In this document: positions 4,288-32,510 of the stretch, piece after piece
How positions within the stretch are numbered: the first letter of the stretch is position 1
Layout of the letters: every line of letters begins with the position of its first letter
From: an uncultured Kiritimatiellota bacterium
Lineage (GTDB): Bacteria > Verrucomicrobiota > Kiritimatiellia > RFP12 > DVOR01
Assembly (NCBI GenBank): GCA_944391065.1
Contig: CALXSH010000004.1
Span: 1 to 64,000 of the forward strand
Direction of reading: 5' to 3'
DNA length: 64,000 nucleotides
Position numbers and translations under genes: made by a program
Notes under the pieces: generated by a model
The model's database searches: none
What the model saw: only the letters and a program-made list of their open reading frames with translations
What the model was told of the DNA's origin: nothing

Positions 4288-5671
4288 CGGGCATGGCCTC
4301 CAAAATCGCGGCACCTGCCCGTCCTTTGCGGGAGACCGTGCTGACCGCCAGACGCCGCGGACGCGCGGACGAGGCGATCCATGGGCGGGCCTCCTGCACC
4401 CAGTAATAGGCGCGCTCGGGCAGCTTCAGACGGAAGGTGTCGTCGACAGGAGTAACGGAGGGCGGCAGGATACAGTGGTTCAGTGCGAGCAACCCCTTCA
4501 GCAGGCCGAGGGCACCGGCGGCGGTAAAGGTGTTGCCGAAGGCCGTTTTGGCCGAACCGACGGCCAGCAGCGGAATGTGGGCGCCGCGATTGGCGGTGGC
4601 GGCGTTGAGCAGGGCCTCCTCGGCGGCGTCCTCCTCGGGGATGCCGGAGGCATTCATTTCCCAATAGTCGATGTCGCGGAAACCGTTGGGCATGCGGCGC
4701 AGGGCGCGGTGTAGGGCGCGGCGCAGGCTTTCGCGCAGTCCATCCTCCGTTGACGGCAGGCCGGAGACCATGCCGCAACCGTGCAGACGGGCATAGCAGC
4801 GCGAACCGTCGTCGCGGGCGTCGGAGCCCCTTCTGAGCACGAAGGCCGCGCCACCCTCACCGGGCAGCGTGCCGCATGTCCCATCCGTGAAGGGTGACAG
4901 TTCGTGGGCCGTGGTGAAGGGGGTGAGCACCGCTTCGCCAAGCAATCCCGGCATCAGGATGGGCGGCTGCACGGCCACAACAACGGCCGCGTCGCACTGA
5001 TTCGTGCGCAGGGCGTTGGCCGCGGCCTCAAGTCCGGTGAAGACCGAAGCCTCGCCGGCGGAGCAGAGGCAGGCCGTGTCGCAGGCGGTGACCGTCTGGG
5101 CCAATCTGCGGACCACGTCATCGCCGCGCGCGGCGTCGAGCTGCGACGGACGGAGCCGGGGCAGTGTCGCGGCCAGCTCGGTGCGCAACTGAGCCGCCTG
5201 ACTGCCGGTCATGGCCGGCACAAAGCGCTGAATGGCGGTCATCAGCTGTTCAATGCCTGTGGCGTGCTGGAACCAATTGATGGCGGCGGGATTGAAAAAG
5301 GGATCGTAGCCGACGTAGAGGGCCACGCGGTCGGTCCTGTCGGAGCCGGGCGGCATGCCGGCATCATTCAGCGCGTCGAAGATGAGTTGAGCCACGAACC
5401 AGAAATCGGGATTGTCGCCGAGGCTGACTTCCGGAATGTCGGGCATCATGTCGGAGCGGCAGGCGAAGTTGTCGCCGAGCGCCGCGCAGACCTCCGGCAT
5501 GGTATGGGCGGGGAAGAGATCCTCGGAGATGTGGGCGCCCTCGCTTTCGCCGAACGGCGCGAAGAAGGACTGCTTATGCAGAATGGCCTTCCAGAGCGCA
5601 CGCGGCGTGGCGGCACCGCCGAAGCTGCCGCTGATGCCGGTAAATACAATACTGTCGGCATGAGGAATCAT
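4280..5671 (-). CDS. Ketosynthase-like protein with altered catalytic triad
   Basis: A 463-residue thiolase-fold ketosynthase. The nucleophile region is DTAC with C201 present. The two histidines of the Cys-His-His triad appear to be Asn: the EAHGTGT position reads EMNASGI (N340) and the NIGHT position reads AFGNT (N380). Such a protein could still bind or transfer an acyl group, but decarboxylative condensation would be unlikely. In known PUFA synthases a chain-length-factor partner is similarly altered, though there the Cys is usually lost. It is the first gene of a two-gene unit with the AT-DH-PPT protein. A TGCTAGAAT element ends 10 bases before the ATG. Confidence 0.8.
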   Translation of the reverse strand: MIPHADSIVFTGISGSFGGAATPRALWKAILHKQSFFAPFGESEGAHISEDLFPAHTMPEVCAALGDNFACRSDMMPDIPEVSLGDNPDFWFVAQLIFDALNDAGMPPGSDRTDRVALYVGYDPFFNPAAINWFQHATGIEQLMTAIQRFVPAMTGSQAAQLRTELAATLPRLRPSQLDAARGDDVVRRLAQTVTACDTACLCSAGEASVFTGLEAAANALRTNQCDAAVVVAVQPPILMPGLLGEAVLTPFTTAHELSPFTDGTCGTLPGEGGAAFVLRRGSDARDDGSRCYARLHGCGMVSGLPSTEDGLRESLRRALHRALRRMPNGFRDIDYWEMNASGIPEEDAAEEALLNAATANRGAHIPLLAVGSAKTAFGNTFTAAGALGLLKGLLALNHCILPPSVTPVDDTFRLKLPERAYYWVQEARPWIASSARPRRLAVSTVSRKGRAGAAILEAMPDD

Positions 5672-29920: not shown

Positions 29921-31006
29921 TCAAAAAGAGGGACTTGGGGCGAGCCGTACGGCGATGCGGCTCCAGTCAAACCGCGCCTCGGCCCCGTCAAAGAGAGGCG
30001 CGAACCGGGCTTCCCGCGCGTTTGACGTCAGCGCGGCCATCCGGCACAGCGCGTCACGCAGCGCCTCCGCCGTGGGCGCCACGCGGAAGTCCCCGAGTTC
30101 CGGCCACGGAACGCCCTCGGCGCAGATGACCGGCGTACGACAGCAGAGAGCCTCTGCGACGGCGATGCCGAAGTTCTCCCCGCGTGAGGGCAAGACAAGA
30201 CAGGCAGCCGTCCGCAGAGCGCGGGCCTTCGCTTCGGGCCCGAGAAGGCCGAGGTAAATGATGCCGCCGCCCTGGGGAACCGGAGCGCCGTCCGGCGGGC
30301 CGGCGATTTCCAGCGTCCAACCTTGGGCGGCCAAGCCGGAAGCGTTCCAGGCGGCCTCCAGCAGGTCGAGGCCTTTGAGCGGATGGAGGCGGCCCAGAAA
30401 GAGAAAGGTCCTGCGGCGGGGCAGGGGCGGGGCGGGATCCGGCGGCAGCGTCACGCCGTCGGGAACGGTGACAATCGGCGGGCAGTCCGCTCCCAGAAGC
30501 CGTCTCGTCCGATCTGCCTCCGCCGCCGAGCAGGCATGCAGCCGCGCCGCGCGGCAGAGCAGGGGGCGGAAGGTGCGCCTCCAGACCCAACGCCGCAGGG
30601 CCGCGTGGCGCGTAAAGAGAGCCTCGCCGAGTGCACCGTGGAGGGACCACTGCAGCGGCAGACTAAGCCGCCCGGCAGCGCGGGCGGCCGCGAAGACAGG
30701 CTGGCTCCAGCCGCCGTGCAGATGGACATGGGTGACCGTCCGCATCAGGCGCGGCAGGGCAAAAGGAAGGGTGGGGGAGAGATAGAGCGCAGCCGGAGGC
30801 ATCGGGCGGAAGGTCCGGATCGTGAGGGTCTCGGGCGGATTGTCCGTCAGCAACGGGTGGAGCGGATGGCCGGAGAGGCAGGCCACGGTTATCCGCAGGC
30901 CGGACTTCGCCTGGGCGACAGCCAACGAAGCCATGGCCTCCGAAAGACCGCCGCCGTCGGCCCAGCAGCCGGCCGAGAGGTGAAGAATATGGGGCGCACG
31001 CTTCAT
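29921..31006 (-). CDS. Glycosyltransferase family 4
   Basis: A 361-residue GT-B enzyme. The N-terminus has the GGGLSEAMASLAVAQAKSG glycine-rich acceptor loop, and the middle has FLFLGRLHPLKGLDLLEAAW, typical of the GT4 linker. The donor site shows LPSRGENFGIAVAEALCCRTP with the two Glu residues of the E-x7-E motif. It probably acts on a cell-surface glycan. It is transcribed from its own TGCTAAACT element. Confidence 0.88.
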   Translation of the reverse strand: MKRAPHILHLSAGCWADGGGLSEAMASLAVAQAKSGLRITVACLSGHPLHPLLTDNPPETLTIRTFRPMPPAALYLSPTLPFALPRLMRTVTHVHLHGGWSQPVFAAARAAGRLSLPLQWSLHGALGEALFTRHAALRRWVWRRTFRPLLCRAARLHACSAAEADRTRRLLGADCPPIVTVPDGVTLPPDPAPPLPRRRTFLFLGRLHPLKGLDLLEAAWNASGLAAQGWTLEIAGPPDGAPVPQGGGIIYLGLLGPEAKARALRTAACLVLPSRGENFGIAVAEALCCRTPVICAEGVPWPELGDFRVAPTAEALRDALCRMAALTSNAREARFAPLFDGAEARFDWSRIAVRLAPSPSF

Positions 31007-31097: not shown

Positions 31098-31229
31098 TTG
31101 ACAGGGAAGCGCCGTCACTTGCTATTCGAAATGGGCGGATCCTGGGTGCCTTCGCGCGGGGAGAGGCACACTGCCTCCTTTGGCCGGAGGTCCCCCACCC
31201 ATGCGTCTGAAGATCCCGGAAGGGGGACC
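31098..31229 (+). ncRNA. Possible unidentified structured RNA
   Basis: TTGACA (31098-31103) with a 17-base spacer and a poor -10 (GCTATT, 31121-31126) precedes a GC-rich stretch with two hairpins that share bases: CCTCC/GGAGG (31174-31190) and the perfect 8-bp GGTCCCCC/GGGGGACC (31189-31229). No coding frame is convincing. I could not match it to SRP RNA, 6S RNA, tmRNA or RNase P RNA. Confidence 0.2.
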
Positions 31230-31299
31230 GGGGGACGGCACGAAAAGGATTTGCGGTAAGGTCACTTCTGACCGAAAGTGCGGCCAAGAGAGACTCGCC

Positions 31300-31380
31300 A
31301 CCCTATAGGGTAGTCATTCGCTACCCTATAGGGTAGTAACGCGTCACCCTATAGGGTAGCATGGCACTACCCTATAGGGT
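31300..31380. repeat. Array of four 12-bp palindromes at exact 23-bp spacing
   Basis: The perfect palindrome ACCCTATAGGGT starts at 31300, 31323, 31346 and 31369. The 11-bp spacers differ except that each begins AG, so the palindromes and not the spacers are conserved. The second copy extends to 16 bp (CTACCCTATAGGGTAG). The array is about 240 bp from the GT4 promoter and 300 bp from the tRNA promoter, so it is not placed like an ordinary operator. It could bind an oligomerising dimeric protein. Confidence 0.9.
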
Positions 31381-31564
31381 GGGATGTCGACTTAGGGCAA
31401 GGCGCAGGTCACTTATCGGGCGCTGTGCGGTCTTGGTAAGGGCTATTGGGGGTGGCTTATGAAGGTCAGAAGGGGGGATCCGTGGCTTTCGCGTAAGAGG
31501 AGGCCTGCACGTTCCGGGGGCGTCCGCACCGTCCATGGGCGGAGGGCTCTCCGGATGGGACCGC

Positions 31565-31578
31565 TTGACGGCCGTCAA
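31565..31578. repeat. 14-bp perfect palindrome
   Basis: TTGACGGCCGTCAA is a perfect palindrome about 185 bp after the four-copy array, unrelated to it in sequence. It may be a single regulator site. Confidence 0.5.
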
Positions 31579-31603
31579 TGCGCCCCCTCGTTCGGAAAAA
31601 TGT

Positions 31604-31638
31604 AAATGCGCCTATGCTCAGAGGCCGTAGGCGCATTT
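31604..31638. terminator. Hairpin, possible minus-strand terminator
   Basis: A perfect 11-bp stem, AAATGCGCCTA with TAGGCGCATTT, around a 13-base loop. On the minus strand it is followed by a T-rich run (ACATTTTTCC); on the plus strand no T-run follows. Confidence 0.45.
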
Positions 31639-31680
31639 CGGAGGGCGAGAGACGCGGGAGAAAATATTTTCAAAAATCTG

Positions 31681-31726: not shown

Positions 31727-31802
<76 letters not shown>

Positions 31803-31813
31803 CTCTCCCTTAT

Positions 31814-31889
31814 GGGGGTGTAGCTCAGTTGGTAGAGCAAGTGACTCTTAATCACTGGGTCCACGGTTCAAGCCCGTGCACCCCTACCA
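31814..31889 (+). tRNA. tRNA-Lys (CTT), copy 1
   Basis: A 76-base cloverleaf with anticodon loop CTCTTAA, anticodon CTT, and encoded CCA. It differs from copies 2 and 3 at the acceptor (GGGGGTG with CACCCCT) and by one base in the T loop. Confidence 0.95.
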
Positions 31890-31924
31890 TTTCGGAGAGC
31901 GGGACAGAATGTGGCATACCGGTT

Positions 31925-32000
<76 letters not shown>

Positions 32001-32010
32001 CTTTCCCCAT

Positions 32011-32086
32011 GGGGGCGTAGCTCAGTTGGTAGAGCAAGTGACTCTTAATCACTGGGTCCACGGTTCGAGCCCGTGCGCCCCTACCA
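32011..32086 (+). tRNA. tRNA-Lys (CTT), copy 2
   Basis: A 76-base cloverleaf with anticodon CTT, acceptor GGGGGCG/CGCCCCT and encoded CCA. Confidence 0.95.
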
Positions 32087-32116
32087 TTCGGGAAGACCGG
32101 ATGCGCGATACCGGTT

Positions 32117-32192
<76 letters not shown>

Positions 32193-32202
32193 CTTTCCCC
32201 AT

Positions 32203-32278
32203 GGGGGCGTAGCTCAGTTGGTAGAGCAAGTGACTCTTAATCACTGGGTCCACGGTTCGAGCCCGTGCGCCCCTACCA
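32203..32278 (+). tRNA. tRNA-Lys (CTT), copy 3
   Basis: Identical to tRNA-Lys copy 2 and exactly 192 bp downstream of it. Confidence 0.95.
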
Positions 32279-32308
32279 TTCGGGAAGACCGGATGCGCGA
32301 TACCGGTT

Positions 32309-32384
<76 letters not shown>

Positions 32385-32394
32385 CTTTTCCCAT

Positions 32395-32470
32395 GGGGGC
32401 GCAGCACAGTTGGCAGCGCAGGTGATTCCTGATCACTGGGTCCGCGGTTCGAGCTCATGCGTCCTTGGCA
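32395..32470 (+). pseudogene. Decayed tRNA-Lys copy with anticodon CCT
   Basis: The same 76-base length as the Lys copies but with about a dozen changes. The anticodon loop reads TTCCTGA, giving CCT, an arginine anticodon. Conserved T8 is C, the D-stem GCTC is GCAC, the T-stem has a C-A mismatch, several acceptor pairs are G-T and the CCA end reads GCA. It is most likely non-functional. Confidence 0.75.
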
Positions 32471-32476
32471 TTCGAA

Positions 32477-32510
32477 AGGCCGATCGACACAGTCGGCCTC
32501 TTTGTTTTTT
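32477..32510 (+). terminator. Terminator of the tRNA array
   Basis: A 7-bp stem, AGGCCGA with TCGGCCT, followed by CTTTGTTTTTT, beginning 7 bases after the decayed tRNA. Confidence 0.8.

Follow-up and report, generated by a model that had tools for sequence, protein, structure and literature searches.

Comparison with described systems

Short perfect palindromes that chromosome-organizing proteins bind are found at many intergenic places in the MatP/matS, Noc/NBS, SlmA/SBS, and ParB/parS systems. Phased arrays of several sites, placed upstream of the gene for the DNA-binding protein that uses them, are known from ParR/parC and the phage lambda operators, and the lambda operators have a similar pitch of 23-24 bp. 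Nucleoid proteins with specific sites are also known, and some IHF sites and Fis upstream activating sequences stand upstream of tRNA genes. Proteins of the HU-HIG family (PF18291) consist of an HU domain fused to a wHTH, Ig, or glycine-rich motif. In 2017, Burroughs et al. reportedly predicted that the family has roles in chromosome partition and mobile-element recognition. A search of open-access full text found no published description of cognate DNA arrays for HU-HIG proteins. In Bacteroidota, another many-copy intergenic repeat is PINSR of Prevotella intermedia, a 188-bp sequence with about 180 copies, for which no dyad array or protein link is described (PMC4755523).

Here, we analyzed a palindrome array in a 64,000-nt stretch of DNA (the window), which covers positions 1-64,000 of contig CALXSH010000004.1 (GCA_944391065.1), called C4 in the source genome, G000. 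This genome belongs to a gut bacterium and is a fragmented MAG of 1.96 Mb in 79 contigs. Unlike the sites of MatP, Noc, SlmA, and ParB, the arrays are phased, usually hold four sites, and have a member of the HU superfamily as the likely partner. They also differ from those sites in that several apparently private codes are present per genome, with fast turnover between species. Unlike ParR/parC and the lambda operators, they are linked to another protein fold, have no ParM or phage genes, and are present as copies dispersed over the chromosome. IHF sites are single and asymmetric, whereas the arrays consist of strict dyads at variable distances from promoters. To our knowledge, the dyad of the window, ACCCTATAGGGT, differs from the parS, matS, NBS, and SBS motifs.

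The array in the window

The first-pass annotation of this DNA reported four identical palindromes at 23-bp intervals between 31300 and 31380, and this was borne out. Four copies of the 12-bp dyad ACCCTATAGGGT are located at 31300-31311, 31323-31334, 31346-31357, and 31369-31380, with no strand assigned, 0 mismatches, and an exact pitch of 23 bp. The spacers between them are 11 bp each and differ in sequence. When up to two mismatches were allowed, these four were the only matches to ACCCTATAGGGT in the window (expected 0.53), and none of 100 shuffles reached four. When the 64-kb window was scanned de novo for sets of four dyads with a pitch of 21-25 bp, this was the one array found, and the shuffled window had none.

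The array is flanked by two arms: a motif at 31270-31299 on the + strand and the same motif on the opposite strand at 31381-31410. A dispersed repeat of about 490 bp (family A; 31165-31654, + strand) carries the array. A perfect 11-bp hairpin, AAATGCGCCTA...TAGGCGCATTT, is located at the right end of this repeat (31602-31640, + strand). The 77-bp stretch around the hairpin (31577-31654) is a separate dispersed repeat, present without an array at about 11 other places, several of which are contig ends.

The array had been described as not next to any start codon. This needs correction, since a divergently oriented glycosyltransferase-like gene (29921-31006, - strand) has its start, at 31006, facing the array from 293 bp away. 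This gene, like all neighbor genes other than those of HU-HIG, was named by sequence inspection. A tRNA cluster of four Gly(GCC) and three Lys(CTT) genes (31727-32384, + strand) begins 346 bp from the array. The tRNA genes at 31727-32480 are tandem near-identical repeats. At the end of the cluster, near 32395-32470, lies a decayed sequence resembling tRNA-Lys, where ARAGORN makes no call. The earlier suggestion that the array regulates these tRNA genes was not supported, as no tRNA cluster was seen beside the other arrays. With repeats of 12 bp, spacers of 11 bp, and no cas genes seen near it, the window array does not qualify as a CRISPR, which would have repeats of about 23-50 bp and unique spacers of 25-45 bp.

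Copies of the array across the genome

In G000, ACCCTATAGGGT is found without mismatch 41 times on the + strand, each time inside an array with a 23-bp pitch. The reversed control of ACCCTATAGGGT has 0 occurrences in the whole genome. In all, there are 17 arrays and one remnant, and the usual size is exactly four dyads. Eight arrays have four perfect dyads (on C1, C2, C3, C4, C5, C10, C12, and C13), others contain diverged dyads (C18, C24, C27, C35, C37, C66, C73, and C78), and one has two dyads (C26). The remnant is on C29.

Copies of the 490-bp repeat are present at 81-86% identity on C13, C18, C24, C27, and C66. Shorter or more diverged copies are located on C37, C78, and C35, and partial copies on C47 and C29. 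Seven arrays (C1, C2, C3, C5, C10, C12, and C73) are outside the repeat and have only the dyads and arms in common. Therefore, the unit is the array and not the repeat.

Conservation of dyads, spacers, and arms

The eight perfect arrays together hold 32 dyads of one and the same sequence, whereas the 11-bp spacers have a mean pairwise identity of 38% in seven arrays (that of the window plus six whose flanks are unrelated). This difference supports the view, already taken in the first-pass annotation, that the dyads are under selection. A purine/pyrimidine pattern is kept at spacer positions 1-3 and 9-11 and extends the dyad to 18 bp. In diverged dyads, both half-sites are often altered together, as in ACCATATATGGT (8 copies). 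In the arms of the same seven arrays, an A is invariant at -29 and -7 (14 of 14 arms). The arm motif had a top-8 information sum of 10.8 compared to a null mean of 3.7, and 0 of 2000 shuffles were as good.

Flanking offsets 1 and 3 showed no Watson-Crick covariation. At offset 1, A-C mismatches (8) and G-U pairs (6) had similar frequencies. Some Watson-Crick covariation was seen at offset 2 (p 0.008). Overall, these patterns are better explained by a pair of protein half-sites on DNA than by an RNA stem. The arrays are also supported as lineage-specific functional sites.

HU-HIG genes and their upstream arrays

Two paralogous genes, on C10 and C73, have a ACCCTATAGGGT array upstream, at distances of 147 and 149 bp. 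Their products are 269 aa long, are 49% identical, and both match PF18291 (HU-HIG, HU/IHF superfamily). The closest solved structures to the HU-HIG proteins are IHF and HU. The proteins of C10, C73, and C16 score 32.8, 30.4, and 31.1 bits, above the curated Pfam cut-off of 26.2. Those of C24 (22.0) and C70 (13.0) score below it, and both align with the other paralogues over their full length. About 100 aa at the C-terminal side are also conserved among the paralogues, with no Pfam Ig match.

All five full-length HU-HIG paralogues of G000 have an upstream array with a 23-bp pitch and 4-7 copies, and four different dyads are used. The dyad is ACCCTATAGGGT for C10 and C73, GGCTATAGCC in four copies for C24, CATACCGGTATG with its variants in four copies for C16, and AACCCATATACCC, in both orientations, in seven copies for C70. 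Two of these four dyads, ACCCTATAGGGT and GGCTATAGCC, are also dispersed in G000. Arrays of GGCTATAGCC are found at six loci (the C24 gene and five other places), and the CATACCGGTATG array is found at its own HU-HIG gene only. When collections of genome and viral contigs were scanned with a protein alignment pattern built from the five paralogues, there was no confirmed match. A leader motif, GGTGTCCGGTGAGGAG, is located just 3' of a TATAAT-like box in four of the five genes (L015:365-390, L038 about 4890-4910, and the leaders of L070 and L068).

Arrays in congeners and other Kiritimatiellae

ACCCTATAGGGT was absent from 16 congeners and from viral contigs in an exact search, and the full-length HU-HIG protein was absent from all 16 congeners. 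A shorter HU-HIG gene is present in eight of the 16, with an upstream array only in Candidatus Spyradenecus faecavium (G009). A related pattern, ACCCTNAGGGT with an 11-bp spacer, is dispersed in this congener and in RUG12190 (G135) and is also present in G027, G100, and G136. In these genomes, the core has one base less and the spacer is still 11 bp, which gives a pitch of 22 bp. S. faecavium has about 30 arrays, one of which is near its short HU-HIG gene, and it also has a longer HU-HIG gene without an array. Absence from relatives, which in the first-pass annotation was to count against the array, is a misleading test here since relatives and Bacteroidota carry analogous arrays with other dyads.

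In Kiritimatiellae RGIG1481 (G027), two arrays were found, and each stands immediately upstream of an HU+TIG gene. The TIG score of the encoded proteins is 17.0, below the cut-off of 20.9, and PF18291 misses these proteins, which indicates that the sensitivity of the profile is limited. The two HU+TIG genes (L128 and L129) are near-identical and stand with their arrays at two loci, one of which is beside a serine recombinase and is possibly a mobile carrier. A PF18291 search (E <= 1e-4) gave no HU-HIG match in the array-bearing RUG12190, UBA4286, and RUG12612. Likewise, no HU-HIG genes were found near the arrays of G135, G100, G136, and Prevotellaceae.

Arrays in Bacteroidota, on a plasmid, and on a phage contig

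A scan of GTDB found 12-bp arrays with a 23-bp pitch in MAGs of two Bacteroides species, and their positions correspond between the two. PF18291 matches 20 and 12 genes in the two genomes, which are multi-paralogue sets typical of the family. Across both species, 27 clear HU-HIG genes had enough upstream sequence to be scored. With a periodicity threshold of 42, which was chosen after the data had been seen (the second-best control scored 40), 20 of the 27 showed strong 22-24-bp periodicity within 600 bp upstream, compared to 1 of 75 control ORFs (Fisher 6e-14, computed with a conservative denominator of 28). Four weak PF18291 matches that resemble canonical HU had no upstream array. The lone control ORF with strong upstream periodicity, of 22 bp, is on L260 near 8469 (minus strand coordinate) and may mark a further dispersed array.

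The consensus units of the Bacteroides arrays are palindromic (combined p 6e-7), strongly in about one-third of the arrays and weakly in the others. The dyads vary with the HU-HIG gene and include CCCCATGCATGGGG, AACATTATAATGTT, TGGACGCGCGTCCA, GTATCAGATAC, and others. Between the two species, the dyad is unchanged in orthologous pairs with 98% and 92% protein identity and changed in pairs with 84-90% identity. In the pair with 86% identity, the center of the dyad is the same and the outer bases are different. At least three of the dyads are also found in arrays away from their gene. For the ACCCTTAAGGGT arrays, which are dispersed in Bacteroides, no cognate gene was found. A plasmid of Parabacteroides and a phage contig from the human gut have the same layout of array and HU-HIG gene. 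On L202, L199, and L175 of Bacteroides, arrays with different dyads are stacked in one intergenic region, with ACCCTTAAGGGT beside GACCTCTTGACCTC or GTATCTGATAC. Most Bacteroides HU-HIG proteins (L205-L254) end in one and the same acidic sequence, EDDGDHQLG, although the rest of the protein has diverged strongly.

Genes next to the dispersed arrays

The dispersed arrays are located in larger intergenic regions, about 70-560 bp from gene starts. Their depletion from convergent intergenic regions (2 of 37) was not significant (p 0.15-0.22), and a promoter function is therefore not proven by position alone. Arrays with different dyads adjoin the same genes in several genomes: nadB in G000, G009, and G135, and the gene for glutamine synthetase III in both Bacteroides as well as in G000 and G009. 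Other such neighbors, found in both G000 and G009, are htpG, which is 1.1 kb away in G000, and ilvD, on opposite sides. By a rough estimate, about one neighbor shared between G000 and G009 would be expected by chance and, thus, the recurrence is suggestive only. The nadB promoter of RUG12190 and the array there are separated by about 300 bp. This gap and the variable distances to genes do not fit a simple activator.

Proposed function and alternative explanations

Arrays with a regular pitch, a usual copy number, and dyads under selection are associated in cis with HU-HIG genes in two phyla. These sequence patterns make it probable that an array is the cognate platform on which several dimers of an HU-HIG protein bind, controlling the protein's own gene and having local effects at the dispersed copies. 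The partner of the window array would be an HU-HIG protein encoded elsewhere in G000. One dimer would bind each 12-bp dyad (18 bp with the purine/pyrimidine preferences), and four dimers at a 23-bp pitch, closed off by the two inverted arms, would form a compact complex of about 140 bp. Where the array is just upstream of an HU-HIG promoter, the complex would provide autoregulation. At dispersed copies, including the one in the window, it may affect nucleoid structure or the transcription of neighboring genes locally. We infer direct binding, autoregulation, and the local effect alike. For the dispersed arrays, we favor a role in which a nucleoprotein complex controls transcription or DNA structure locally, and we hold this with less confidence than the link to the protein.

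Another explanation is that a different dimeric regulator binds the arrays and the HU-HIG genes are merely one set of its targets. This would suit the genomes that carry arrays without detectable HU-HIG genes, as well as the metabolic genes flanked by arrays, among them nadB and the gene for glutamine synthetase III. However, a common regulator should have a common site, and the dyads differ among the HU-HIG paralogues of a single genome. HU-HIG is also the gene family that recurs beside arrays in both phyla, and we regard a separate regulator as unlikely. It is less likely still that the arrays are mobile or selfish MITE-like repeats whose spread is helped by HU-HIG. The window copy does belong to the multi-copy 490-bp repeat, one copy in G027 is beside a serine recombinase, and HU-HIG genes are found on a plasmid and a phage contig. 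The arms are inverted, as in a MITE, yet the seven arrays outside the repeat share no further flank with it. In addition, no sharp ends or target duplications were found for the 490-bp repeat, and array positions are kept between orthologous regions of the two Bacteroides species.

The first-pass annotation had offered replication, partition, and nucleoid organization as possible functions. Phased multiple dyads and a link to a nucleoid-type protein do recall the layout of parS, matS, and parC. Nevertheless, it is very improbable that the array serves as an origin, as a partition centromere, or in nucleoid segregation generally. GC skew does not switch around the window array, no rep or dnaA gene is nearby, and 17 arrays and a remnant spread over many contigs do not make a single origin or partition locus. 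The absence of ACCCTATAGGGT from all 16 congeners and the presence of several independent dyad systems in one genome point the same way. What stands of the nucleoid proposal is a nucleoid-type protein as the likely partner. We give equally little credence to a transcribed RNA structure, whether a terminator or hairpins in tandem. The fold of either strand is very stable (z about -10), but this is inevitable for palindrome arrays, and the flanking offsets lack the covariation of a stem apart from that at offset 2. Rfam returned only the tRNAs, a weak sRNA match, and a sub-threshold microRNA model reacting to the long palindrome.

If HU-HIG proteins do bind the arrays, paralogues would diverge jointly with their dyads, leaving each with a private sequence. 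It is conceivable, though we lean slightly against it, that the family forms a many-channel addressing system, in which paralogue-private palindromes, in arrays of usually four sites that change together with the protein, mark dispersed loci. In Bacteroidota and Kiritimatiellae, the HU superfamily would then have produced chromatin proteins that diversify and bind arrays with sequence specificity. The arrays suggest that a weakly specific DNA-bending fold became a family of private-code DNA readers. HU-HIG genes are numerous in gut Bacteroidales, and the arrays offer predicted binding sites for individual paralogues, whose function is now testable.

Pairs of ACCCTAAGGGT and ACCCTTAGGGT with an 11-bp spacer were also seen on Chloroflexi contigs (L168:6398-6497 and L151), where they are part of a longer 67-bp repeat.
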